Source: Paracoccaceae bacterium
Lineage (GTDB): Bacteria; Pseudomonadota; Alphaproteobacteria; Rhodobacterales; Rhodobacteraceae
Assembly (NCBI GenBank): GCA_016936395.1
Contig: JAFGXY010000001.1
Location: forward strand, 1-35,482
Length of the DNA stretch: 35,482 bases
Reading direction: 5' to 3'
Below are positions 3,770-28,472 of this stretch, one piece after another (positions within the stretch are counted from its first letter, which is position 1; each line of letters starts with the position of its first letter). The translations under genes and the position numbers were made by a program. The notes under the pieces were generated by a model. That model was given only the letters and a program-made list of their open reading frames with translations, did no database searches and had not been told where the DNA came from.

Positions 3770-3807
3770 ACAACCGGGATGACCAATGTCATCGCGGTTG
3801 TTTTCGT
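3770..3807 (+). terminator. Hairpin terminator closing the phn-type operon
   Basis: Two 14-base arms (acaaccgggatgac and gtcatcgcggttgt) pair with one mismatch around a CAAT loop. The second arm runs into a short T stretch (tgttttcg). It lies 22 bp after the phosphodiesterase stop and about 130 bp before ugpB, so it probably separates the two transcription units. The T tract is short, so termination may be partial. Confidence 0.65.
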
Positions 3808-3938
3808 ATATACCCGTCAAGCAATTGAAATTGTTACAAAAATTTATGATTACCTTTGTCGGCCTGACACCAAGGTGCGTCATGGTGCGACAATGCCGCC
3901 GTCCCGCGCGGCTGCCATCCAACTCGGAGACAGCGACG
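3808..3938 (+). promoter_or_regulatory. Probable ugp promoter/operator region
   Basis: This gap is clearly AT-rich against its surroundings at 3810-3857. It contains TATGAT at 3845-3850 as a possible -10 element, but no well-spaced -35 (TTGAAA at 3825-3830 is only 14 bp away). Downstream is a 10-bp direct repeat, caaggtgcgt then catggtgcga at 3871-3890, in which GGTGCG recurs exactly one helical turn apart. A TGTC-N5-GACA dyad sits at 3857-3869. ugp operons are classically controlled by PhoB, but I find no convincing pair of Pho-box half sites here. A ribosome site (ggaga) at 3926-3930 serves ugpB. Confidence 0.5.
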
Positions 3939-5264
3939 ATGAAAACCAAACTCGCAACCGCCGCTCTTGCGGTTCTGGCCACGGCAGGCGCCGCCTCGGC
4001 CGAAAAGACCAAGTTCGAATACTGGTATGGCCTGACCGGCGATCTGGGCAATGTGGTGCTGGAAACCTGCAACCGCTTCAACGCCAGCCAGGATCAGTAT
4101 GAGGCCGTTTGCGTGGGTCAGGACGGCTATGACAAGGCCGTGCAGAACACCATCGCCGCCTTCCGCGCCGGCAAGCACCCGACCCTGCTGCAGTCCTTCG
4201 ACGCAGGCACCGCTGACCTGATGCTGTCGGGCCAGTTCTACCCGGTTCACCAGATGATGAAGGACTTCAACATCGAGATCGACTGGGCCAACTACTTCCC
4301 CGGCATCGCCAACTACTATTCGTCGTCCAAGGGCGATTTCGTGTCGATGCCGTTCAACTCGTCGACCCCGGTGTATTACTATAACAAAGAGCAGTTCGAA
4401 AAGGCCGGCATCACCGAGGCTCCGCTGACCTGGGAAGGCATGGAAGCCGCGTTCAAGGCACTGAAGGCGTCCGGTCAGGCGTGCAGCCTTGCCTATGCCC
4501 CGTCCACCTGGGTTGACCTCGAACAGTTCTCGATGGCCCACAACGTGCCGGTTGCCAGCAAGAACAACGGCTATGACGGGCTGGACTCGGAGTTGGTGTT
4601 CAACACCACGAAGCACGTCGAGCACATGGAAAACATCCAGCGCTGGATCAACGAAGGCTATGCCTTGGTCCGCACCCCGGTGTCGGGCAAATCGGCGCGC
4701 GACAGCTTTGTCGAAGGCGAATGCTCGGTGTTCTTCTCGTCGATCGCCGACCACAACACCGTTGGCAAGCTGAAGCCGACCTTCGCCTGGGACGTGCAGA
4801 TGATCCCGGTTTACGAGGGCACCGAGCGGCACAACACCGTCGTCGGCGGCGCGTCGCTCTGGGTTCTGGCGGGCAAGTCGGATGACGAATACAAGGCCGC
4901 CGCTGCCTATCTGGCCTTCCTCGCCACCCCGGAGTCGGAAGAGTTCTGGTCCACCAACACCGGCTATATTCCGGTCACCAAGGCTGGCTTCAATGCTCTG
5001 GTCGAAAAGGGCTTCTACAACAACGCCCCCTACAAGGGCCGCGAAGTTGCCCTGAAGTCGCTGACCTACACCGAGCCGGGCCCGCTGACCCGCGGTATCC
5101 GTCTGGGCAGCTTCATCCAGATCCGCGCCGAATGGCAGGCCGAGGTTGAAGCCGCTCTGGCCGGTCAGAAGACCATGAAAGAGGCGCTGGATACCGCTGT
5201 TGCCCGTGGCAACGACCATCTCAAGCGCTTTGCCCAGACCTACAAGGGCAAGTCCTTCCCGTAA
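3939..5264 (+). CDS. ugpB: sn-Glycerol-3-phosphate ABC transporter substrate-binding protein UgpB
   Basis: A 441-aa periplasmic solute-binding protein of family 1, close to the roughly 438 aa of E. coli UgpB. ATG at 3939 follows a good ribosome site and gives a clear Sec signal peptide (KTKLATAALAVLATAGAASA, cleaved near residue 21). The mature start KTKFEYWYGLTG, the segment ALLQSF-like TLLQSFDAGTADLM, the PFNSSTPVYYYNKEQFEKAG block, and ECSVFFSSIADHN fit the UgpB family, which binds glycerol-3-phosphate and glycerophosphodiesters outside the inner membrane. It is the first gene of ugpBAEC. A 12-bp GC hairpin follows its stop, probably letting it be made in excess over the membrane parts. 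Confidence 0.93.
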   Translation: MKTKLATAALAVLATAGAASAEKTKFEYWYGLTGDLGNVVLETCNRFNASQDQYEAVCVGQDGYDKAVQNTIAAFRAGKHPTLLQSFDAGTADLMLSGQFYPVHQMMKDFNIEIDWANYFPGIANYYSSSKGDFVSMPFNSSTPVYYYNKEQFEKAGITEAPLTWEGMEAAFKALKASGQACSLAYAPSTWVDLEQFSMAHNVPVASKNNGYDGLDSELVFNTTKHVEHMENIQRWINEGYALVRTPVSGKSARDSFVEGECSVFFSSIADHNTVGKLKPTFAWDVQMIPVYEGTERHNTVVGGASLWVLAGKSDDEYKAAAAYLAFLATPESEEFWSTNTGYIPVTKAGFNALVEKGFYNNAPYKGREVALKSLTYTEPGPLTRGIRLGSFIQIRAEWQAEVEAALAGQKTMKEALDTAVARGNDHLKRFAQTYKGKSFP

Positions 5265-5272
5265 CCATCATC

Positions 5273-5302
5273 CGGCGCGGCGGCCCCATCGCCGCCGCGC
5301 CG
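5273..5302 (+). other. Strong intercistronic hairpin between ugpB and ugpA
   Basis: A perfect 12-bp all-G/C stem (cggcgcggcggc with gccgccgcgccg) around the loop cccatc, starting eight bases after the ugpB stop. No T run follows, so it is not a classical terminator. Hairpins after binding-protein genes are known to protect the upstream mRNA or thin out downstream expression; that role here is inferred from position. Confidence 0.75.
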
Positions 5303-5327
5303 ACCCTTCTGCATGACCGGAGGCATG

Positions 5328-6209
5328 ATGCGCCGCGCCTATTTCAAGACAAGCTGGATTGCTGCGCTGCTGCTGGCGCCGCAGCTTTTGATCATTTTCG
5401 TGTTCTTCTACTGGCCATCGGCGCAGGCGGTCTATTGGGCCTTTACGCTGGAACAGCCCTGGGGCGGCGGCAACACCTGGGTCGGGTTTGACAACTTCCG
5501 TAATATTCTGTCCGACCCCTATTATTGGTCATCGGTGCGGGTCTCGCTGATCTATGCGGTGGCGGCCACGGCCCTTGCGATGGGCATGTCGCTGATTCTG
5601 GCGATGTTCGTTGACCGGCAACTGGCGGGCTACAAGGCCTATCGGGTGGCGCTGATCTGGCCCTATGCGATTGCAGCCCCGGCGGTGGGTCTGGCGTTTC
5701 GCTTCATATTCAACCCCAACGCGGGGATATTCTCTTATGTCAACACGGTGATCCCCGGTCTTTGGGACCCGACGCAGATCGGCTGGCAGGCGGTGGTCAC
5801 CATCATTCTGGCCGGTGCATGGAAGCATGTCGCCTACAGCTTCATCTTCTTTCTGGCGGCGCTGCAATCCATTCCGCGCAGCCTGACCGAGGCGGCAGCA
5901 ATGGACGGCGCACGACCCTTGCGCCGGATGGTGGACCTGCAACTGCCGCTGCTGACGCCGACGGTGTTTTTCCTGTTCGTCATCAACATCACCGACAGTT
6001 TCACCGACAGTTTCGGCATCGTCGATACCCTGACCGGCGGCGGGCCGTTCCGGGCGACCGATCTGATGGTCTACAAGATCTATTCCGACGGCTTTCGCGG
6101 CTTTGACTATTCGGGGGCAGCGGCGCAGTCGATCATCCTGATGGTGCTGGTGATGGCGCTGACCTTCGTGCAGTTCCGCTATGTCGAACGCCGCGTCCAT
6201 TATACCTGA
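5328..6209 (+). CDS. ugpA: sn-Glycerol-3-phosphate ABC transporter permease UgpA
   Basis: A 293-aa inner-membrane permease with six predicted helices, similar in length to E. coli UgpA (295 aa). The N terminus (KTSWIAALLLAPQLLIIFVFFYWPSAQAVYWAF) aligns naturally with the family start. The EAA loop is SIPRSLTEAAAMDGARPLRR, and DTLTGGGPFRATDLMVYKIY is typical of the UgpA/MalF class. Possible starts are ATG at 5313, 5325 and 5328. GGAGG at 5319-5323 lies downstream of the first and immediately before the others, so I favour 5328, although the spacing is short. Forms the channel with UgpE. Confidence 0.92.
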   Translation: MRRAYFKTSWIAALLLAPQLLIIFVFFYWPSAQAVYWAFTLEQPWGGGNTWVGFDNFRNILSDPYYWSSVRVSLIYAVAATALAMGMSLILAMFVDRQLAGYKAYRVALIWPYAIAAPAVGLAFRFIFNPNAGIFSYVNTVIPGLWDPTQIGWQAVVTIILAGAWKHVAYSFIFFLAALQSIPRSLTEAAAMDGARPLRRMVDLQLPLLTPTVFFLFVINITDSFTDSFGIVDTLTGGGPFRATDLMVYKIYSDGFRGFDYSGAAAQSIILMVLVMALTFVQFRYVERRVHYT

Positions 6210-6218
6210 GGGCCGAAG

Positions 6219-7148
6219 ATGATCGAGCGCACCCCGATTTTGAACTTTTTGACCCATGTCATCCTTCTGATCGGGCTGGCGCTGGTGATCTTCCCGATCT
6301 GGTTGGCCTTTGTGGCCGCCACGCATGATCTGCGCGCCGTCAACACGGCCCCGGTCGAGCTGCTGCCCGGCCCGCATCTGTGGGCCAACATGAAGGAAGC
6401 CTGGGCCTTGTCCGACTTCGGCCCGAAGTTCGTGAACACGCTGATCGTGGCCATCGGGGTTGTGGTGGGCAAGGTCACACTGGCCTGCATCACAGCGTTT
6501 TCGCTGGTGTTTTTCAACTATCGCGGGCGGATGCTGATTTTCTGGCTGATCTTCATCACCCTGATGCTGCCACTGGAGGTGCGGATCGTTCCAACCTATG
6601 CCGTTGCCGCCAACGCGCTGTCGCCATTTCAGGTGATGCTGGATGCCTCGGGTCTGAACGGGTTGATCGAGACGCTTTCTGGCATCCGGGTGGCGCTGGA
6701 ATGGAACCTGCTCAACTCTTACACCGGCATGATCCTGCCGCTGGTGGCCACGGCCACCGGCACCTTCCTGTATCGCCAGTTCTTCCTGACCGTCCCGGAT
6801 GAGCTGGTCGAGGCCGCCCGGATGGATGGGGCAGGGCCCTTGCGGTTCTTGTGGGACACGCTGATCCCGCTGTCGAAGACCAATATCGCGGCACTGGCGA
6901 CCATCATGTTTGTCTATGCCTGGAACCAGTATCTCTGGCCTTTGCTGATCATAACCGACCGCGCCAACTACGGCATGGTTGTGGTGCAATTGTCCGACCT
7001 TGTGCCGGACCAGTTTTCCACCGGCGGCGGCACGCCCACCTGGCATCTGGCGATGGCGGCGACGCTGATGGTGATGCTGCCGCCGATTGCCATCGTCATC
7101 TTCATGCAGCGCTGGTTCGTGCGCGGCCTGATCAACACCGACAAGTAA
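6219..7148 (+). CDS. ugpE: sn-Glycerol-3-phosphate ABC transporter permease UgpE
   Basis: A 309-aa inner-membrane permease, the partner of UgpA, starting 9 bp after it. It has an N-terminal helix ([21 protein letters not shown]), the VAATHDL stretch typical of UgpE, a central helix block, and the EAA loop [19 protein letters not shown] that docks on the ATPase. It ends in LINTDK-type sequence as UgpE proteins do. The segment from about residue 130 to 165 is somewhat longer than in E. coli UgpE (281 aa), giving an extended periplasmic loop. Located between ugpA and ugpC in the standard order. Confidence 0.92.
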
Positions 7149-7161
7149 CAGGAGCGCCGCC

Positions 7162-8268
7162 ATGGCCGAAATCGCGATCCGCAACGCCGGCAAGACCTAT
7201 GGCAAGACCCGGATCATGCAGGACGTCAGCCTTGTGATCAACAACGGCGAGTTTGTGGTGATCCTCGGCCCGTCGGGCTGCGGCAAGTCCACACTTCTGC
7301 GGATGATTGCGGGGTTGGAGGACATCACCGACGGCGAAATCGCGATTGGCGGGCAAGTGGTGAACCGGCTAGAGCCTCGAGAACGCGGCTGTGCCATGGT
7401 GTTCCAGAACTATGCACTTTACCCGCATATGACGGTGGCCGAAAACATCGGCTATGCGCTGAAGGTGGCGGGCATGCCAAAGGCTGACCGGCTGGCAAAG
7501 GTGGCCGCCACCGCGCAATCGGTGGGGTTGACCGAGTTTCTGGACCGCAAGCCGGGGCAATTGTCGGGCGGGCAGCGCCAGCGGGTTGCGATGGCCCGCG
7601 CCATCATCCGCGAACCCAAGGTGTTTCTGTTCGACGAGCCGCTGTCGAACCTTGACGCCAAGCTGCGGGTGCAGATGCGCCATGAAATCCGCCGCATCCA
7701 CAACCAGATCAGCGCCACCAGCGTGTTCGTGACCCATGACCAGCACGAAGGCATGACGCTGGCCGACCGCCTGGTGGTGATGAACAAGGGCACCATCGAA
7801 CAGATCGGCACCCCGGAAGAGGTCTATGACCGCCCGGCCTCGGTCTATGTGGCGGGCTTCATCGGCAGCCCGGCGATGAACTTTCTGCCCGGCCGGGTGA
7901 CCGACAGCCGCTCGGCGGTGGTGCTGGACGATGGCCAGACCATCCCGCTGGTATCGGCGATCAAACCGGCCGCCGGGCAGATGGTGCAGATCGGTCTGCG
8001 GCCGGAAAAGCTGACGCTGGCCCCGCTGGGTGGCGGCGCCTTGGCCGCGCGCTTTGAATTTGCCGAAGAACTGGGGTCGGGTCGTCTGTATCATCTGAAG
8101 ATCGAGGATGTTCCGGTCAGCGTGATGGCGGCCGAAAAGCACAGCTTTGTCGAGGGCCAGACCATTGGTCTTCGGTTCCCGAATGATGCGGTGCATGTGT
8201 TTGACGGGGCCTCGGGCCTGCGGCTTGACCTGCATCATGCCCCGGCGGCCGCGCTGGTATCGGCGTGA
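7162..8268 (+). CDS. ugpC: sn-Glycerol-3-phosphate ABC transporter ATP-binding protein UgpC
   Basis: A 368-aa ATPase that powers the importer. Walker A is GPSGCGKST at residues 36-44, followed by a Q-loop ([13 protein letters not shown]), the signature [15 protein letters not shown], Walker B with catalytic Glu ([16 protein letters not shown]) and the H-loop THDQHE. The C-terminal part (about residues 235-355) is the TOBE/MalK-like regulatory domain, with [10 protein letters not shown] ribosome site (caggag) lies just before the start. Its stop shares GTGA with the next gene, so the 2H phosphoesterase is translationally coupled to it. Confidence 0.95.
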
Positions 8269-16092: not shown

Positions 16093-16737
16093 GTGCCGGT
16101 GCAGAAAGATGCCTATACGCTGATTCTCGACGCGATCGAGGCGGGACTCTACCAACCGGGCGACCGGCTGGTGGAATCAGAGCTGGCGGAACGGCTTGGG
16201 GTCAGCCGCACCCCGGTGCGCGAGGCGCTGCAACGGCTGGAAACTCAGGCCATGCTGACGCGCGACGGGCGCAGCCTGATTGTGGCCAGTCTGGACCACA
16301 ATCAACTGGCCGAGCTTTATGCGGTGCGGACCGAGTTGGAAGGCTTGGCCTCGCGGCTGGCCGCCCGCCACGCAACCGATGAGGAAATCCGCGTGCTGCG
16401 CGGAATGGTCGAGGATGACCGCGCCTTGCTGACCGGCGATCCGCGCGCCATGAGCCGGGCCAACAAGCGGTTCCACCGGCAGATCCATCTGGCCAGCCAC
16501 AACCGCTTTCTGGTGCAGCAGCTTGATCTTGTGCACCGGTCGATGGCGCTGATGGCCACCACGTCGCTGGCGGCAGAAGGCCGTGGCGAGGGGGCCTTGG
16601 CCGAGCATGAGGAGATTGTCGGCGCCATCGAGGCGCGCGACGGTGACGCCGCCTACAAGGCGCTGCGCACCCATATCAGCCGCGCCTTCGAGACCCGGTT
16701 GCGCGTGGATGCGGGCGAGTTGAAGCTGAAGTTCTGA
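16093..16737 (+). CDS. GntR family transcriptional regulator, FadR/FCD type
   Basis: A 214-aa DNA-binding regulator. The N-terminal winged helix-turn-helix spans about residues 5-70, with PGDRLVESELAERLGVSRTPVREALQRLE. The all-helical FCD ligand-binding domain (about residues 75-205) carries the metal-ligand pattern of the family, including NKRFHRQIHLASHN and LAEHEEIVGAIEARDG. Such proteins respond to carboxylic acids or related metabolites. The start is GTG at 16093, with another GTG six bases later as an alternative. It stands alone, divergent from the HAD gene and convergent with the glycosyltransferase gene, so its target is not evident. Confidence 0.9.
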   Translation: MPVQKDAYTLILDAIEAGLYQPGDRLVESELAERLGVSRTPVREALQRLETQAMLTRDGRSLIVASLDHNQLAELYAVRTELEGLASRLAARHATDEEIRVLRGMVEDDRALLTGDPRAMSRANKRFHRQIHLASHNRFLVQQLDLVHRSMALMATTSLAAEGRGEGALAEHEEIVGAIEARDGDAAYKALRTHISRAFETRLRVDAGELKLKF

Positions 16738-16766: not shown

Positions 16767-18638
16767 TCAGTCCAGCGGATCAAACTGCCCATGCGCGGTC
16801 TTGTCCCAAAAGAACGGGCGGCAGACCAATTCCCACGCCGCCTTGTAAGAGGCCAGCGCGCCCAGCGGAAAATAGACGTGCATCGAGACCACCCACCACC
16901 GGCTGAGCCTGTGGCCAGACAGGTGCAGGGCGGTGATCCCCAGCGCGATATTGGTGATCTCGGACAGCGCGAACAGCGCGATCAGCGCCAGAAAGGCCAT
17001 GGGCGGCAGGGCATCGGCCAACGGATGCGGCACATCAAGCCAGGTCAGCCAGAAGGACCAGAGCAGCGGGGCCAGCAGGAATTGCGACAGCGTGCCCAGA
17101 AACAGCACCTGAAACCCCGCAAACCGCCACCAGCCCAGCTGCCGCAGCAATTGGCGCGGGTCGCGCATGTGGGTGGCCCAGGTCATCATGTAGCCCTTGA
17201 GCCAGCGCGAGCGTTGCCTGACCCAAGGCAGCGTGCGGCAGTTGGCCTCTTCGCCGGTCACAGTGTCGATCACTTCGGTGCGATAGCCGTAGCGATACAG
17301 TCGCATTCCCAGATCGGCGTCTTCGGTCACGTTATGGGCATCCCATCCACCGACCTTTTCCAGCGCGTCGCGGCGGAAAAACACCGTGGTGCCGCCCAGC
17401 GGCACCGGCAGGCCAAGGCGTTGCAGCCCCGGCAGGATCAGGCGGAACCAACTGGCGTATTCGATGGTAAAGCAGCGCGACAGCCAGTTTGTTGTGGGGT
17501 TGTAGAAATCCAGCACGCCTTGCAGGCAGGCCACCTCGGGCCCGCGCTGGTAAAAGCGCTGCACGATCCGGGTGATCTGGTCGGGCTCGGGCGCATCTTC
17601 GGCATCATAGACCCCGATGATTGACCCGCGGCAATGGTCCAGCGCAAAGTTCAGCGCCCGCGGCTTGGTCTTGACGCGACCGCCCGGCACCACGACCTGC
17701 CGCATCCACGAGGGCAGGTTGGCGGCGGTCAGCGCGGTGCGGGTGGTTGCATCCTCTTCTTCCACCACCAGAACGATGTCCAGCAGTTCGCGCGGGTAGT
17801 CCAGCCGTGACAGACGGCGGATCAGGCGCGGCGCGATATCGCTTTCATGAAACAGCGCCACCATGACCGATACCGTGGGCAGGCGCGCGATCAGCGGCGG
17901 TGGGGCGATCTGACGGGGCCGTGCCCGGGCGGCAAGTGCCGCCGCAATCTTCAGCAAGGTGGTCAGGATCAGGGTTGCGACCGCCCATCCCAGCAGCAGC
18001 CAGCCAAGGGCCAAAGGCCAGATCAGCATCACCGCAAGGGCCAGCAGCGCCACAACGACCAGCGGGCGCAGCACGGTGTCGCCCCCCAGATGCCGGCAAC
18101 TGTCTGCCGCCCTGACACGGGTTTCGGCGCTGCGGGCAAGGCGATTGCCGCGCATCGCCAACAGGGTGGCGTCGATGGCCGCCGCCGGGGCGATGGCCAT
18201 GGCGACCGGGCCGAACAGCGCCGTCAGGTGATCGTGGTGGCGCAGGAAGTCTTCCGGTTGGGCCGTGGCCACGATGGTGACGCTGCCGGCGCTGTGCCAT
18301 GGCAAGACACTGTGGCGCAGGCAGTAATCGGCACCAAGCCGATCAATCAGCCGCACATCCGGCGGGCTGGTCTGCGGGTCGATGACATTGGTGCCCCATT
18401 GGCGGGCCAGACCTGCGTAAAGCTGGTCCGGCGCGATCAGGCCGCGCGACAGCAAGATGTCGGTCAGCCGCCCGCGCCCAAGCGCCTGTTGGGCCAGCGC
18501 CTGCACCATGCCATCGCCCGATACCAGACCCTCACGCAGCAGCGCCATGCCAAGCGTCGCCGCGCGTGGGTTCGGCTGCGCCGGCAGGGGGCGCGCTTGC
18601 GCCACATCGGGCGACAGCAGGAATGGCAGTGCGGACAT
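16767..18638 (-). CDS. Membrane glycosyltransferase family 2 protein with N-terminal MshEN-like c-di-GMP-binding module
   Basis: A 623-aa polytopic inner-membrane enzyme. Residues 28-51 and 57-80 form two 24-residue repeats, each with L-x-x-x-L-L-x-x-G-L and a final L-A-x-Q, separated by exactly five residues: the layout of the MshEN domain, which binds c-di-GMP in type II secretion/pilus ATPases. Two membrane helices follow (about 190-236). The GT-A catalytic domain (about 255-480) has DAED at 345-348, TED at 438-440 and QxxRW at 475-479, as in processive polysaccharide synthases such as BcsA. About four more helices fill residues 505-600. No PilZ domain is present. A CtrA-type box lies upstream. 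The product is unknown; a surface polysaccharide is inferred. Confidence 0.87.
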   Translation of the reverse strand: MSALPFLLSPDVAQARPLPAQPNPRAATLGMALLREGLVSGDGMVQALAQQALGRGRLTDILLSRGLIAPDQLYAGLARQWGTNVIDPQTSPPDVRLIDRLGADYCLRHSVLPWHSAGSVTIVATAQPEDFLRHHDHLTALFGPVAMAIAPAAAIDATLLAMRGNRLARSAETRVRAADSCRHLGGDTVLRPLVVVALLALAVMLIWPLALGWLLLGWAVATLILTTLLKIAAALAARARPRQIAPPPLIARLPTVSVMVALFHESDIAPRLIRRLSRLDYPRELLDIVLVVEEEDATTRTALTAANLPSWMRQVVVPGGRVKTKPRALNFALDHCRGSIIGVYDAEDAPEPDQITRIVQRFYQRGPEVACLQGVLDFYNPTTNWLSRCFTIEYASWFRLILPGLQRLGLPVPLGGTTVFFRRDALEKVGGWDAHNVTEDADLGMRLYRYGYRTEVIDTVTGEEANCRTLPWVRQRSRWLKGYMMTWATHMRDPRQLLRQLGWWRFAGFQVLFLGTLSQFLLAPLLWSFWLTWLDVPHPLADALPPMAFLALIALFALSEITNIALGITALHLSGHRLSRWWVVSMHVYFPLGALASYKAAWELVCRPFFWDKTAHGQFDPLD

Positions 18639-18680: not shown

Positions 18681-18695
18681 TTAACAGTTGGTTAA
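18681..18695 (-). promoter_or_regulatory. Perfect CtrA-type binding box (TTAA-N7-TTAA)
   Basis: On the minus strand it reads TTAACCAACTGTTAA followed by CC, the full consensus for the alphaproteobacterial response regulator CtrA. It lies 43-57 bp upstream of the glycosyltransferase start, a normal activator position, and overlaps the last codon of carA. I found no second perfect copy in the other intergenic regions I read. Function is inferred from match and position. Confidence 0.65.
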
Positions 18696-19870
18696 ACGGA
18701 AACAATATCCCCGGCGTCCGGGCCGCGACGGTGCTGCATCGCCTTGGCAAACCGCTCGAACAGATAATAGCTGTCTTGCGGGCCGGGGCTGGCCTCGGGG
18801 TGGTATTGCACCGAAAACACGGGCTTTCCGGTGACGGCGATGCCGCAATTCGACCCGTCAAAAAGCGAGACATGGGTCTCGGTCACGTCTTCAGGCAGGG
18901 TCTGGCTGTCCACCGTGAAGCCATGGTTCATCGAAGTGATTTCCACCTTGCCCGTGGTCAAATCCTTGACCGGGTGGTTGGCGCCATGGTGGCCGTGGTT
19001 CATCTTCACCGTCTGCGCCCCAAGGGCCAGCGCCAGCATCTGATGGCCAAGGCAGATGCCGAACACCGGCAGATCGCGCGCCAGCACGCCTTGGATCATC
19101 GGCACGGCATAGGTCCCTGTGGCCGCCGGATCGCCCGGACCATTGGACAGGAACACGCCTTCGGGGTTAAGGGCCAGCACGTCTTCGGCGGTGGCGGTGG
19201 CGGGCAGAACGGTCACGTCACAGCCGGCACTGGCAAGGCAGCGCAGGATGTTGCGCTTGGCACCATAGTCGATCGCGACAACGCGCAGGCCCGGCCCTGT
19301 CCGTTTGGTATAGCCTTCCGGCCAGGCCCACCGCATTTCATCCCAACGATAGGATTGGGCGCAAGACACGTCCTTGGCCAGATCAAGCCCGACCAGGCCT
19401 TTCCAGGCGCGGGCCTTTGCCACCAAAGCCCCGATGTCGAACACCCCATCGGGGTTGTGCGCCAGCGCGACATGCGGGGCGCCTTGCTGGCGGATGGCGC
19501 GGGTGAGGCGGCGGGTGTCGATGCCCCCCATGCCGATGCGGCCCTTTTTCACCAGCCAGTCGCCAAGTTCACCCGTAGCGCGCCAGTTTGACGGCTCGGT
19601 CACGTCCCATTTCACCACCATGCCGGCAGCGACGGGTGCGGCGGTCTCGTCGTCTTCAACCGTGACGCCGGTGTTGCCGATATGCGGGAAGGTAAAGGTG
19701 ACCACCTGACCGGCATAGCTGGGGTCGGTCATGATTTCCTGATAGCCGGTCATCGCGGTGTTGAACACCAGCTCGGCCACGGTTTCTCCCACTGCGCCAA
19801 AGCCCTGACCGTAAAACAGCGTGCCATCGGCAAGCGCAAGGCAGGCGGTAGGCTTCTGCAAGGCAGGCAT
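18692..19870 (-). CDS. carA: Carbamoyl-phosphate synthase small (glutaminase) subunit
   Basis: A 392-aa subunit that hydrolyses glutamine and passes ammonia to CarB, for pyrimidine and arginine synthesis. The N-terminal CPSase-sm domain starts with CLALADGTLFYGQGFGAVGETVAELVFNT and contains MTGYQEIMTDPSYAGQ. The class I glutamine amidotransferase domain has the nucleophile Cys in FGICLGHQMLALALG and the catalytic His-Glu in VQYHPEASPGP. The SNGPGDPAATG oxyanion-loop segment is intact. carB is not in the window. The gap to the divergent YqeY gene should carry its promoter, but I cannot pick one with confidence. Confidence 0.97.
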   Translation of the reverse strand: MPALQKPTACLALADGTLFYGQGFGAVGETVAELVFNTAMTGYQEIMTDPSYAGQVVTFTFPHIGNTGVTVEDDETAAPVAAGMVVKWDVTEPSNWRATGELGDWLVKKGRIGMGGIDTRRLTRAIRQQGAPHVALAHNPDGVFDIGALVAKARAWKGLVGLDLAKDVSCAQSYRWDEMRWAWPEGYTKRTGPGLRVVAIDYGAKRNILRCLASAGCDVTVLPATATAEDVLALNPEGVFLSNGPGDPAATGTYAVPMIQGVLARDLPVFGICLGHQMLALALGAQTVKMNHGHHGANHPVKDLTTGKVEITSMNHGFTVDSQTLPEDVTETHVSLFDGSNCGIAVTGKPVFSVQYHPEASPGPQDSYYLFERFAKAMQHRRGPDAGDIVSV

Positions 19871-23594: not shown

Positions 23595-23935
23595 GTCGGT
23601 GATTTCCGTTTGAACGGCTCTGCTGCAGTGCTGCCTGGACCTCCACCATCCCGCAGCCCTGTGCTGCCGGGCTTGCCGTCATTGCCGCGCTGCTTCAAAC
23701 AGCCGTCCAGTCTTTGTTTCGCGAGATCTATCATCGTCACGGTCCAGAAACAGGGCGTCAAGGCTGTGCGGGCGCGCAAGGGCTGCTAAATGCGGCGCAA
23801 GATGGTTGATCCCTCCATATCCTGCCCGCAAAAGCCGAAATTGTGACAAGCCGGTTGCAATGCAGGACCGCATTGGTTTTAGTTGCCCAAAGCGAGTGCA
23901 GGAAACCTGCCGGACCACATGGGGAGACCAGCGCA
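23595..23935. other. Non-coding region upstream of the polyamine-type ABC operon
   Basis: About 340 bp with no gene I can support. The half nearest the operon holds possible control signals: a caatgc-N6-gcattg inverted repeat at 23858-23875, a small gcagg-aaa-cctgc hairpin at 23898-23910 in the probable leader, and ttgtgaca at 23841-23848 as a -35-like element. A minus-strand reading frame at 23679-23918 lacks a ribosome site and any domain I know, so it is not called. Confidence 0.45.
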
Positions 23936-25036
23936 GTGAGCGTAAGCCACGCCGACGCCTTCGTTGCTTTCGAGCATGTCCAGAAAAGCTATGACGGGGT
24001 CAGCCTTGTTGTCAAAGACCTGAACCTGTCCATCGCCAAGGGTGAGTTTCTGACGATGCTTGGCCCGTCAGGGTCGGGCAAGACCACCTGCCTGATGATG
24101 CTGGCCGGGTTCGAAACCGCGACAAATGGCGAGATCAAGCTGGACGGCACCAACATCAACCGGGTGCCGCCGCATAAGCGCGGCATTGGCATGGTGTTTC
24201 AGAATTACGCGCTGTTCCCGCATATGACGGTGGGCGAAAACCTGTCGTTTCCGCTGGAAGTGCGCGGCATGGGCAAGGCCGACCGCGAGGCCAAGGTCAC
24301 GCGTGCGCTTGACATGGTGCAGATGGGGGCCTTTGCCAACCGACGCCCGGCGCAACTGTCGGGCGGGCAACAGCAGCGCATCGCCCTTGCACGGGCCTTG
24401 GTGTTCGATCCCAAGCTGGTGTTGATGGACGAACCCTTGGGCGCGCTGGACAAGCAGTTGCGCGAACACATGCAGTTTGAAATCAAGCATCTGCACGAAA
24501 GTCTTGGGATCACGGTGGTTTACGTCACCCATGATCAGGGCGAGGCGCTGACGATGTCAGACCGGATTGCCGTGTTCAACGATGGCCGCATCCAGCAACT
24601 TGCACCCCCGGCTGATCTGTATGAACGCCCCGACAACAGCTTTGTTGCGGGCTTCATCGGCGAGAACAACAAGCTGCCCGGCACAATTGAGGAGCTTTCG
24701 GGCGACAAGGCGCTGGTGCGGCTGGCCAATGGCGAGCTGATTGATGCAACCCCCGTGAATGTCACGCAAAAAGGCCAGAAAACGCTGGTGTCGATCCGCC
24801 CCGAACGGGTGGAGTTCAAGCCCGAGATGATGCCCGACGGGGCCCATATGATCGGCGCCGAGGTGCTTGAGGTGATCTACATGGGTGACATTCTGCGGGC
24901 CGTGCTGCGCGTTGCAGGGTCGAATGATTTCGTGATGAAGATGCGCAACACGCTTGGTCAGACCAAGCTGGAGCCGGGGCAGAAGATCCGCGTCGGCTGG
25001 GATCCGCTTGATGCCCGCGCGCTTGACCCGATCTGA
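23936..25036 (+). CDS. Spermidine/putrescine-type ABC transporter ATP-binding protein (PotA-like)
   Basis: A 366-aa importer ATPase. Walker A is GPSGSGKTT at residues 43-51, then Q-loop VFQNYALFPHMTV, signature LSGGQQQRIALARAL, Walker B LVLMDEPLGALDKQLR, H-loop THDQGEALTMSDR, and a C-terminal TOBE domain (about 280-360, with SIRPERVEF). GTG at 23936 was chosen because GGGGAGA lies eight bases before it and the protein then starts at the family's usual place; an upstream in-frame start at 23843 would add 31 residues resembling no family. It heads an ATPase, binding protein, permease, permease operon. The substrate class (polyamine or similar cation) is from family resemblance only. Confidence 0.9.
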   Translation: MSVSHADAFVAFEHVQKSYDGVSLVVKDLNLSIAKGEFLTMLGPSGSGKTTCLMMLAGFETATNGEIKLDGTNINRVPPHKRGIGMVFQNYALFPHMTVGENLSFPLEVRGMGKADREAKVTRALDMVQMGAFANRRPAQLSGGQQQRIALARALVFDPKLVLMDEPLGALDKQLREHMQFEIKHLHESLGITVVYVTHDQGEALTMSDRIAVFNDGRIQQLAPPADLYERPDNSFVAGFIGENNKLPGTIEELSGDKALVRLANGELIDATPVNVTQKGQKTLVSIRPERVEFKPEMMPDGAHMIGAEVLEVIYMGDILRAVLRVAGSNDFVMKMRNTLGQTKLEPGQKIRVGWDPLDARALDPI

Positions 25037-25111
25037 CGAAACCCCCGACACCACGGGGCGGCCGCCCGGCGCGGCCAGTATAACGCCGAACATCAACATG
25101 GGAGACTGCCA

Positions 25112-26188
25112 ATGAAAAAACTTCTCGTCCTGACCACCGCCCTTTCGGGCTTTGCCCTTGCCGCTTCGGCGCAGGAAATCGCCGTCATGTCCTGGGGCGG
25201 TGCCTATGCGACCAGCCAGATCGAAGCCTATCACAAGCCTTTTACCGCCAAGACCGGCATCACGGTCGTCGACGTTGTGGCAGACAATCCGGCCGCCCCG
25301 ATCAAGGCGCAAGTCGAGGCGGGCAACGTCACGGTCGACGTGGTTGACCTTGAATATGCCGATGCCGTGCGGCTGTGTGACGAAGGCCTGCTGGAGCCGA
25401 TTGATCCGGCGATCCTTGAACCCGGCGCAGACGGCACGGCGGCGCTGGACGATTTCCTGCCCGGCGCGGTGACCGAATGCTATGTGGCAACCATCGTGTT
25501 CTCGACGCTTTATGCGTTTGACGAAAGCAAGTTCCCCGAAAACCCGCCGTCCACGATTGCCGATTTCTTTGACACCACAAAGTATCCGGGCAAGCGCGGC
25601 ATGCGCAAGGGTGCCAAGGTCAACCTTGAAATGGCGCTGATGGCCGATGGCGTGCCTGCCGCCGATGTCTATGCTACGCTGGAAACCCCGGAAGGCGTTG
25701 ATCGGGCCTTTGCCAAGCTGGGCACCATCAAGGGCGATGTCGTCTGGTGGGAAGCCGGCGCGCAGCCGCCGCAACTGCTTGCCGATGGCGAAGTGGTGAT
25801 GTCCACCGGCTATAACGGCCGCTTCTTTGCGGCTGCGGTCACGGAAGGCAAACCGTTCAAGCAGGTGTTTGACGGACAGGTCTATGAATATGACGGCTAT
25901 GCCATTCCGAAGGGCGCGCCGAACCTTGAACTGGCCAAGCAGTTTTTGACGTTCTCGACCACGACGCAGGCGCTGGCCGATCAGGCCAAGTGGATCTCTT
26001 ACGGTCCGGCCCGCAAGTCGTCGGGTCCGCTGGTCGGGCTGTTCATGGATGGCAAGACCGAAATGGGGGCCTTCATGCCCACTTCGGCGGCCAACCTGAC
26101 CAATGCGCTGCCCTCGTCCTATGAGTTCTGGGTCGATCGCGACACCGAGTTGAACGAGCGTTTCAACGCCTGGCTGGCGTCGAACTAA
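25112..26188 (+). CDS. Extracellular solute-binding protein, polyamine (PotD)-type
   Basis: A 358-aa periplasmic binding protein with a Sec signal peptide (KKLLVLTTALSGFALAASA, cleaved near residue 20). The mature start EIAVMSWGGAYATSQIEAYHKPF is typical of the PotD/family 1 group, as are DVVDLEYADAVRLCDEGLLEPI and the late GYNGRFFAA block. Two Cys (LCDEG and TECYV) may form a disulfide. A GC hairpin follows the stop. It is the binding component for the permeases at 26246 and 27519. The exact ligand is not predictable. Confidence 0.9.
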   Translation: MKKLLVLTTALSGFALAASAQEIAVMSWGGAYATSQIEAYHKPFTAKTGITVVDVVADNPAAPIKAQVEAGNVTVDVVDLEYADAVRLCDEGLLEPIDPAILEPGADGTAALDDFLPGAVTECYVATIVFSTLYAFDESKFPENPPSTIADFFDTTKYPGKRGMRKGAKVNLEMALMADGVPAADVYATLETPEGVDRAFAKLGTIKGDVVWWEAGAQPPQLLADGEVVMSTGYNGRFFAAAVTEGKPFKQVFDGQVYEYDGYAIPKGAPNLELAKQFLTFSTTTQALADQAKWISYGPARKSSGPLVGLFMDGKTEMGAFMPTSAANLTNALPSSYEFWVDRDTELNERFNAWLASN

Positions 26189-26196
26189 GATCACAC

Positions 26197-26230
26197 GGGG
26201 CGGCGGGGTCAGCCTGCCGCCCCAATTTTG
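26197..26230 (+). other. Intercistronic hairpin after the binding-protein gene
   Basis: An 8-bp GC stem (ggggcggc with gccgcccc) around an 11-base partly paired loop, followed by aattttg. It looks like a weak terminator or attenuator between the binding-protein and permease genes, in the same position as the hairpin after ugpB. Confidence 0.65.
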
Positions 26231-26245
26231 ACCAAGGGGGCACCG

Positions 26246-27505
26246 ATGGCCGAACTTTCCGCATCCTCCGTCGGGTTGACCACCGCCGACGGTCGCCCGC
26301 TGAAAGCCGCGCTTGCCACGGCACAGCAACGTGCCAAGCGGCGGGCGTTTCTGCTGGTGCTGCCGCTTTTGGCTTTTATCGTGATCACCTTCATCGTGCC
26401 GATTGGCCAGATGATGCATCAGGCCGTCTATAATGACGGGTTTTCTGCCAACATGCCGCGCCTCGCGGCATGGTTTGCCGAACACCCCGTGGGCACCGAC
26501 CCAGACGAGTCCGCATGGCAGGCGCTGGCGCTGGACCTGCAAGATGCCTCGGCCGCCAAGACGGCGGGTCAGGTCGGCACACGGGTCAATTACGAGATGT
26601 CTGGCACACGGTCGCTGTTCACTTCAACAGCGCGCAAGGCCAAGGGTTTTGCCCCGCCATACCGCGACGCGGTGCTGGCAGCAGGTGCCAAGTGGGATGA
26701 TCCGGTATTGTGGGGCACCATGCGGCAGGTGTCGCGGGCCTATAGCGGCAATTTCTTTCTGGCTGCGCTGGACATGACGCATGATCCGCAAGGCAACATC
26801 GTGGCGATGCCCGAGGATCGGCAGATTTACGTCAACCTGTTCGTCAAGACCTTCCTGCTGGCCGGGCTGATCACCTTCACCTGTTTCCTTTTGGGCTTTC
26901 CTATCGCGCACCTGCTGGCCACATTGCCGCTGCGCTGGTCGAACCTGTTGATGATTTTGGTGCTGCTGCCGTTCTGGACCTCGCTTCTGGTGCGCACGAC
27001 AAGCTGGATCGTGCTTTTGCAACAACAAGGCGTGGTGAACAGTGCGCTGGTCGCCACCGGGGTGATCCCCGACGAAGGCCGGTTCCAGATGATCTACAAC
27101 CAGATGGGCACGATCATTGCGATGACGCATATCCTGCTGCCCTTCATGATCTTGCCGCTCTATTCGGTGATGCGGCCGATCCCGCCGTCTTATGTGCGCG
27201 CGGCGCGGTCGCTGGGCGCCACAAGCTGGACCGCGTTTCGCCGCATATATCTGCCGCAGACGCTGCCCGGCATTGGTGCGGGGTCGCTGTTGGTGTTCAT
27301 CCTTGCGGTGGGCTATTACATCACGCCGGCCCTGGTGGGGGGCGCATCGGGGCAATTGATTTCCAACCTGATCGCCTTTCACATGCAAGACAGCCTGAAC
27401 TGGTCGCTGGCCTCGGCTTTGGCGGCGCTGCTCTTGGGCGCGGTGCTGGTGCTCTATTGGCTCTATGACCGCCTTGTCGGCATCGACAATCTGAAACTGG
27501 GTTGA
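26246..27505 (+). CDS. Polyamine-type ABC transporter permease (PotB-like, with large periplasmic insertion)
   Basis: A 419-aa inner-membrane permease, well above the roughly 275 aa of E. coli PotB. After a cytoplasmic tail and first helix (FLLVLPLLAFIVITFIVPIGQ, about 35-55), a polar insertion of about 135 residues (about 60-195) precedes the conserved five-helix permease core. That core starts at LFVKTFLLAGLITFTCFLLGFPIA and includes the EAA loop PPSYVRAARSLGATSWTAFRR. ATG at 26246 lies five bases after AAGGGGG. Long PotB-like permeases of this kind are frequent in alphaproteobacteria. Pairs with the next gene. Confidence 0.88.
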   Translation: MAELSASSVGLTTADGRPLKAALATAQQRAKRRAFLLVLPLLAFIVITFIVPIGQMMHQAVYNDGFSANMPRLAAWFAEHPVGTDPDESAWQALALDLQDASAAKTAGQVGTRVNYEMSGTRSLFTSTARKAKGFAPPYRDAVLAAGAKWDDPVLWGTMRQVSRAYSGNFFLAALDMTHDPQGNIVAMPEDRQIYVNLFVKTFLLAGLITFTCFLLGFPIAHLLATLPLRWSNLLMILVLLPFWTSLLVRTTSWIVLLQQQGVVNSALVATGVIPDEGRFQMIYNQMGTIIAMTHILLPFMILPLYSVMRPIPPSYVRAARSLGATSWTAFRRIYLPQTLPGIGAGSLLVFILAVGYYITPALVGGASGQLISNLIAFHMQDSLNWSLASALAALLLGAVLVLYWLYDRLVGIDNLKLG

Positions 27506-27518
27506 AGGGGCAATCGGC

Positions 27519-28472
27519 ATGGCACTACCCGTCTACGCAACCCCGCTCGAACGCATCTGGCGTTACACCTATCTGGTGATCTGCGTGCTGATCTTTCTGT
27601 TCCTGATCGCGCCGATCCTGATCGTGATCCCGCTGTCGTTCAACGCCGAGCCGTATTTCACCTTCACAGAAAAGATGCTGTCGCTGGACCCGTCGGGGTA
27701 TTCCCTGCGCTGGTATGACCTGCTGCTGACACAGCCCTCGATGCCAACGGACGTGCCGCGCGACGCGGCATGGTGGGCGCAGGTCTGGCGCGAAAGCGTC
27801 TGGATCAGGGCCGCCAAGAACTCGGTCATCATCGGGGTGTTTTCCACCCTTGTGGCAACGGTTCTGGGCACGATTGCCGCCCTGGGCCTCAGCCGGCCAG
27901 AAATGCCCTATAGGCGGTTGGTGATGGCGATCCTGATTTCACCGATGATCGTGCCGATCATCATCACCGCGACGGGGCTGTTCTTTTTCTACTCGAACCC
28001 CTGCGCACTGCTGAACTGGACCGGGCTGGCCGACCAATGCGGGCGGCTGACCGGCAGCTATCTGGGTGTGGTGCTGGCGCATGCGACGCTGGGCATCCCG
28101 TTTGTGATCATCACAGTGACGGCCACGCTGGTGGGCTTTGACCAGTCGCTGAACCGGGCGGCGGCCAGCCTTGGCGCGCCGCCGACAACCACCTTCTTCA
28201 AGGTCACCATGCCGCTGATCCTGCCCGGCGTGATTTCGGGCGCGCTGTTTGCCTTTGTCACCAGCTTTGACGAGGTGGTGGTGGTGCTGTTTGTCGCCGC
28301 CCATGACCAGCAGACCATTCCGCGCCAGATGTGGAACGGTATCCGCGAACAGATCAGCCCGGCCATCCTTGCGGTGGCGACCATTCTGGTGATCATCTCG
28401 GTCGGCATGCTGGCCACGCTGGAGGTGCTGCGCCGCCGGTCGGAACGGTTGCGTGGCGTGTCCCCCACCTAA
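27519..28472 (+). CDS. Polyamine-type ABC transporter permease (PotC-like)
   Basis: A 317-aa permease, 13 bp after its partner. The first helix (LVICVLIFLFLIAPILIVIPLSF) is followed by a periplasmic insertion (about 42-98) and the core NSVIIGVFSTLVATVLGTIAALGLSR. The EAA loop is DQSLNRAAASLGAPPTTTFFK, then TMPLILPGVISGALFAFVTSFDEVVV, a PotC hallmark. Its stop TAA (28470-28472) overlaps the stop of the convergent AEC transporter gene, so no terminator separates the two operons. Confidence 0.9.
   Translation: MALPVYATPLERIWRYTYLVICVLIFLFLIAPILIVIPLSFNAEPYFTFTEKMLSLDPSGYSLRWYDLLLTQPSMPTDVPRDAAWWAQVWRESVWIRAAKNSVIIGVFSTLVATVLGTIAALGLSRPEMPYRRLVMAILISPMIVPIIITATGLFFFYSNPCALLNWTGLADQCGRLTGSYLGVVLAHATLGIPFVIITVTATLVGFDQSLNRAAASLGAPPTTTFFKVTMPLILPGVISGALFAFVTSFDEVVVVLFVAAHDQQTIPRQMWNGIREQISPAILAVATILVIISVGMLATLEVLRRRSERLRGVSPT

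Follow-up and report, generated by a model that had tools for sequence, protein, structure and literature searches.

An altered N-terminal MshEN module on a carA-linked glycosyltransferase of Rhodobacteraceae

The window analysed here is a stretch of 35,482 nucleotides from a Paracoccaceae bacterium of the family Rhodobacteraceae (GenBank assembly GCA_016936395.1, contig JAFGXY010000001.1, positions 1 to 35,482), and the gene under study (16767..18638, minus strand) encodes a 623-residue glycosyltransferase of family 2 (GT2) with an MshEN module, of a class of cyclic di-GMP (c-di-GMP) receptors, at its N terminus. We favor, with moderate confidence, the explanation that this protein stems from a GT2 synthase that was ancestrally gated by c-di-GMP and whose MshEN module was remodelled in the window's genus, so that tight c-di-GMP binding was likely lost. 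Directly seen are the domain order, the match of the predicted fold, the changed ligand contacts, the linkage to carA, the intact catalytic motifs and the lack of any replacement change in the repeats when the window is compared with its nearest relative.

The MshEN module and its ligand pocket

The gene was delimited by its open reading frame and translation, with an ATG start at 18638 that is preceded by GAGGGT. The first-pass annotation, made without database searches, had described two 24-residue repeats five residues apart and had taken them for an MshEN domain. Both points hold: the translation contains repeat I at residues 28-51 (18486..18557) and repeat II at residues 57-80 (18399..18470), separated by five residues as in the MshEN layout, a profile search gave a PF05157 match of 48.1 bits (cut-off 23.1), and structure prediction returned the MshEN fold for the N-terminal region. 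From the PF05157 match and the predicted fold, an MshEN C-subdomain was placed at residues 82-166 (18141..18395). Two long helices in the predicted secondary structure (residues 187-237; 17928..18080) probably form an N-terminal membrane helix pair, and the helices at residues 494-606 of the predicted structure (16821..17159) are probably membrane and interface helices, the membrane placement being deduced from the models in both cases. Between them lies the GT2 catalytic core (residues 254-482; 17193..17879; this and all the preceding features being on the minus strand), in which the signatures DAED, TED and QRSRW, the profile match and a predicted fold of the cellulose/hyaluronan synthase type all agree with the N-terminal fusion to a GT2 synthase core (DAED, TED, QxxRW) that had been proposed. 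The same annotation was right that MshEN stands here instead of PilZ, as the profile search found no PilZ match in the protein, neither at the C terminus nor elsewhere. The protein differs in this respect from BcsA-type cellulose synthases, and the CelA model gave only 57.3 bits, far under its cut-off of 699.1. Of the 7995 candidates scored, 6665 were relatives at E <= 0.001. Judging from these features, the gene product is likely a membrane-bound sugar polymerase of the GT2 type.

Ligand contacts were read at a repeat offset of 19 between the window protein and the numbering of V. cholerae MshE, a register at which the phmmer alignment has spans of equal length and which equates T28 with R9 and T59 (codon 18462-18464) with G40. 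These two positions are the contact changes of the window protein (R9->T and G40->T), which does not have the full RLG...L...L..Q pattern in both repeats, and the profile NF053729 scored 32.3 and 37.3 bits on it, under the cut-off of 38. Among the 120 best homologues (window included), position 28 is T in 72, S in 26 and R in 2, position 59 is T in 39, A in 23, C in 20, S in 15, V in 13 and G in 3, and position 80 is H in 102 and Q in 5. Within the clade of the window, R9 and G40 are retained in 0/14 members each and Q61 in 2/14. Read from these alignments, the Gua2 half-site of the clade has lost its glycine, and it has also lost its Gln except in the window and its nearest relative.

The first-pass annotation had cautioned that a T at the first position of repeat I left ligand binding uncertain. 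T28 is real, but it is the lesser problem, and the more serious change is the loss of the glycine at position 3 of repeat II (PMC5013675, PMC12002112). In MshE, changes of Arg9, Asp12 or Gln32 cost at most fivefold (PMC5013675), and GSPII-B, which binds c-di-GMP at 6 nM, has K and L in place of both Arg, such that an R at position 1 is dispensable there (PMC11731258). In MshE, by comparison, G40I and G11L led to no ligand-induced shift, and the Xanthomonas GspE, a natural non-binder, carries G40L among several changes (PMC5013675), while Ala at the repeat-II glycine of a rebuilt PilF GSPII-A resulted in a 10-fold loss (PMC12002112). We infer from these published changes that T59 would have a strong effect, whereas T28 by itself would have little; since the literature values cover Ile, Leu and Ala at the repeat-II glycine, the effect expected of Thr is an extrapolation from them. 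In the window's clade, the loss of this glycine, and of the Gln as well outside the window and its nearest relative, thus makes a tight c-di-GMP switch unlikely. A close parallel is GSPII-A of the Thermus thermophilus PilF, which is likewise a folded MshEN-type domain with altered contacts that include the repeat-II glycine (to Ala). It has in addition a change of the terminal Gln to His in repeat I, whereas the window protein keeps both Gln, and it was shown to be non-binding (PMC12002112). GSPII-C of PilF was also considered as proof that an RLxD repeat can bind, and was dropped, as the paper counts three motifs and the binding pair is not discernible in it. Conserved loss of contact residues among homologues, together with absent binding, had been named beforehand as grounds for rejecting the claim; the first half of this was indeed found throughout the sampled clade, and the identity of the module itself was upheld. 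Altogether, the observation behind the first-pass annotation was confirmed and its interpretation was partly supported.

Pocket states and selection among orthologues

The alignment of orthologues, from which 7 glycosyltransferase (GT) frames under 560 residues and 13 duplicates had been dropped, displays a series of pocket states. Both glycines and both Gln are kept in 23 of the 120 orthologues, both glycines but not both Gln in 22 (overcounted by up to ten, given that ten Leisingera-type rows were counted here though repeat I is not recognisable in them by eye), one glycine in 40 and none in 24, and the N-subdomain is absent from 11, which retain a stretch matching the C-subdomain (recognised by eye) in front of the GT. 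All 12 contacts are kept in three orthologues, L090, L129 and L133, each with carA adjoining the GT gene; both glycines and both Gln are also found in the distant relatives L113, L114 and L177, which served as outgroup rows. Since the rows with all 12 contacts stand at the carA locus and these outgroup rows are canonical, the intact pocket is likely the ancestral state, a polarity that comes from the rows themselves, the tree method being blind to gain versus loss. L129 and L133 have a longer stretch between MshEN and the GT core, in frames of 724 and 757 residues. Among the distant loci L157-L196, 25 of 40 were left out, their best segments having no repeat pair. The catalytic motifs stay constant along the series, with DAED and QRSRW in 120/120 orthologues and TED in 119/120. 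On a tree built only from columns of the GT core, the glycine pair changed its state at least 9 times and the presence of the N-subdomain at least 6 times; these counts are minimal and come from a quick tree with 42 of its 126 inner branches under 80 support.

The 11 orthologues that do without an N-subdomain, like the ten Leisingera-type rows without a recognisable repeat I, would suit a module reduced to a folded scaffold or a surface for interactions that no longer takes any small-molecule input. We consider this quite unlikely for the window protein, as a passive element would hardly be expected to show the pattern of changes seen in its repeats: compared with a 94%-identical relative, repeats I and II (53 codons) have 12 synonymous and 0 replacement differences at a synonymous divergence (dS) of 0.32, against 13 synonymous and 10 replacement differences in the C-subdomain, and the GT core has 39 and 6. 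Four other pairs from the window clade gave a repeat omega of 0.15-0.23, and three pairs of canonical proteins gave 0.17-0.40. From these codon comparisons, the altered repeats appear to be maintained by selection in the window lineage, rather than to be in mere decay. A family-wide relaxation of constraint was examined and rejected: the drop in N-subdomain identity seen in non-canonical groups shrank when the contact columns were removed, and no decay is claimed.

c-di-GMP machinery and the input of the module

The genome of the window, a draft that is 91.5% complete, has three GGDEF matches, of which two carry a GGDEF or GGEEF signature, and two EAL matches. One GGDEF match (G000:C38:45542-46042) contains one in-frame TAG by the search count, with a GGEEF signature present. 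The receptor search covered the PilZ and MshEN classes of c-di-GMP receptor and found neither a PilZ match nor a second MshEN in this draft, where an absence is not proof; the GT is therefore the only receptor of these two classes detected in the genome. BcsB (PF03170) gave no match in the draft either, window included. Beyond this genome, 64 carriers of the gene were found in the family (34 and 30 more), of which 52 were tested and 12, mostly incomplete or with partial matches, were omitted. GGDEF was found in 52/52 of them, PilZ in 11/52 and BcsB in 5/52. NF053729 had matches in 33 of these 52 genomes, above its cut-off in 20, and all 34 matches lie inside such a GT. Three carriers (G006:C5, G284:C8 and G313:C22) have, besides the carA-linked GT, PilZ and BcsB matches that lie within ~2 kilobases, and these pairs are probably cellulose synthase operons. 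A trade-off, by which many GGDEF or PilZ proteins would go with motif loss, was tried and rejected (Mann-Whitney p 0.41 for GGDEF number, Fisher p 0.17 for PilZ), in a test for which the supported branches gave only 3 independent pairs.

These counts bear on the possibility that the module still works as a c-di-GMP gate, only of lower affinity, with the synthase as the main c-di-GMP output of the cell, a role comparable to that of NfrB for its own polysaccharide in E. coli. We see this as possible, if doubtful. Ten of the 12 contacts are retained in the window protein, including both Gln and every Leu-type position, the repeats have no replacement change at the dS given above, and the carriers combine universal GGDEF and scarce PilZ with NF053729 matches confined to this GT. 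Against this, G40->T resembles changes that abolish or weaken binding, Q61 is lost in the rest of the clade and is replaced by H in most top homologues, NF053729 scores under its cut-off, and the state of the motif is associated neither with the number of GGDEF matches nor with PilZ.

Several of these observations also weigh against our preferred explanation, in which the gate was remodelled and tight binding likely lost: the ten retained contacts, the small cost of Arg9 changes in MshE and the dispensable R of GSPII-B, and the position of the module as the sole PilZ- or MshEN-class receptor found in a genome that has both GGDEF and EAL matches. To these must be added that the zero-replacement result rests on one close pair, and that the ratio (1-N)/(1-GT), a measure of relative divergence, is 2.02 for canonical proteins, 2.25 for altered ones and 2.70 for the window clade, with no clean separation.

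If the gate was indeed remodelled, its ancestor would, by analogy, have answered to c-di-GMP as NfrB does. The MshEN module and the catalytic core would both face the cytoplasm, and the module may dock on the GT core and set its activity. Its putative input in this genus would be weak c-di-GMP, some different ligand, or a protein partner. Since the module seems to be kept by selection, its role in setting GT activity has probably persisted by way of one of these inputs.

The carA-linked locus, known systems and the family

The gene was found at E <= 1e-60 in 34 of the 37 genomes sampled from its family (its own included), with two partial matches (G011 and G030) and one split by an insertion (G002), and in 1 of 24 genomes outside the family; in a wider draw of 397 genomes from the phylum, 94 had a relative at E <= 1e-30. 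Its conserved upstream neighbour, 53 bases away, is carA (carbamoyl-phosphate synthase small chain; 18692..19870, minus strand), and its conserved convergent neighbour is a GntR/FCD regulator gene (16093..16737, plus strand). carA is present in all 29 fetched loci of relatives L003-L031, and in the loci L117-L145 it stands beside the GT on the same strand in 29/29, with GntR in 27/29. Among 80 named loci, which come from partly overlapping sets with some contigs that end short, 75 contain carA, which in 72 lies immediately upstream in the same orientation (distance under 800), and 73 have a convergent GntR gene downstream. The GT gene is close to core in the family, with a fixed place in the order carA-GT-GntR, and this conserved setting marks it as a long-standing occupant of a single locus rather than a part of an exopolysaccharide cluster. 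It can nevertheless be lost in single strains, as indicated by IS1595-type transposases inside interrupted GT genes of Pseudotabrizicola alkalilacus (L116, 8814-9773; same match as L080) and of an uncultured Roseovarius contig (L087, 3991-4923). The same block also occurs on JANQQD010000115.1 (L060), titled Anaerolineae bacterium, which groups inside the Rhodobacteraceae clade of the tree and is probably a mis-binned or mis-labelled contig. Two ABC uptake systems of the window (3786-8268 and 23843-28472), each with a solute-binding protein, two permeases and a TOBE-domain ATPase, have no visible link to the GT.

No polysaccharide export gene was recognised beside the GT of the window, as had been noted at first, the neighbours being carA and gntR. 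This absence would be explained if the enzyme were not a polymerase and transferred single sugars to a lipid or outer-envelope acceptor, which is compatible with any view of the module. We find this rather unlikely, given that the processive-GT2 signatures QRSRW and TED are retained, that relatives of the same domain order adjoin BcsB, and that two Poly_export matches lie elsewhere in the genome.

NfrB of E. coli had been put forward as the known precedent for such a protein. This does not stand as worded, since a GT2 with an MshEN at its N terminus has already been published, namely Sfz2 of stalk-forming Zetaproteobacteria (a T2SS-E/MshEN-type domain, then GT2; PMC8250860), and relatives of the same order stand beside BcsB. 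NfrB resembles the window protein in being a GT2 with a D-motif (DxD), TED, QxxRW and an MshEN, through which c-di-GMP is thought to activate the GT. It differs in that its MshEN is C-terminal and described as fully conserved, with a Kd of ~1 uM, and in its adjoining nfrA and ybcH, whereas the window protein has an altered module at its N terminus and is encoded between carA and gntR (PMC8669469, PMC8669472); the NCBIfam NfrB model NF008411 matches residues 23-166 with 36.9 bits, far from its equivalog cut-off of 1170. Sfz2 and, probably, the xag-like systems share the N-terminal MshEN followed by a GT2 with TED and QxxRW (PMC8250860, PMC4643136), but they are encoded in clusters that include a BcsB-like gene; two distant relatives of this order (L157 and L165) likewise stand next to BcsB, while the window gene sits between carA and gntR in a genome without a BcsB match. 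Another genome of the same family (G028) has a second MshEN-GT2, ~35% identical, directly beside BcsB (L112, 6516-10384), and downstream of this pair come a response regulator and a histidine kinase. Compared with V. cholerae MshE, the carrier is a glycosyltransferase, not an ATPase, in addition to the two changed contacts; MshEN-glycosyltransferase fusions are mentioned in the same paper (PMC5013675). A link to the gene-transfer-agent receptor was considered through the R. capsulatus capsule gene rcc01081 and dropped, as the available part of PMC10218006 gives no link to the window gene; it reports that the cluster is absent from strain 37b4. No MshEN-GT2 of Rhodobacteraceae is described in the titles and abstracts surveyed, mostly without full texts, and a wider absence is not claimed. 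At that level, the nearly core carA-linked gene and the series of pocket states were not found in print and are new here.

A bolder possibility, which we regard as unlikely, is that Rhodobacteraceae would use the carA-linked MshEN-GT2, a core synthase, as their default c-di-GMP output, since no other MshEN motif was found in most of these genomes, and that in the window's genus selection rebuilt the receptor half towards a different ligand, which would give an MshEN domain of changed specificity. The general presence of GGDEF and the rarity of PilZ among carriers make this gene an obvious candidate c-di-GMP target in the family, with the proviso that annotation as MshEN is by itself no proof of c-di-GMP binding. 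As one syntenic locus leads from all 12 contacts through a rebuilt pocket to the loss of the binding half while the catalytic motifs remain constant, it offers a natural series that allows tests of how a synthase gains or loses control by a second messenger.
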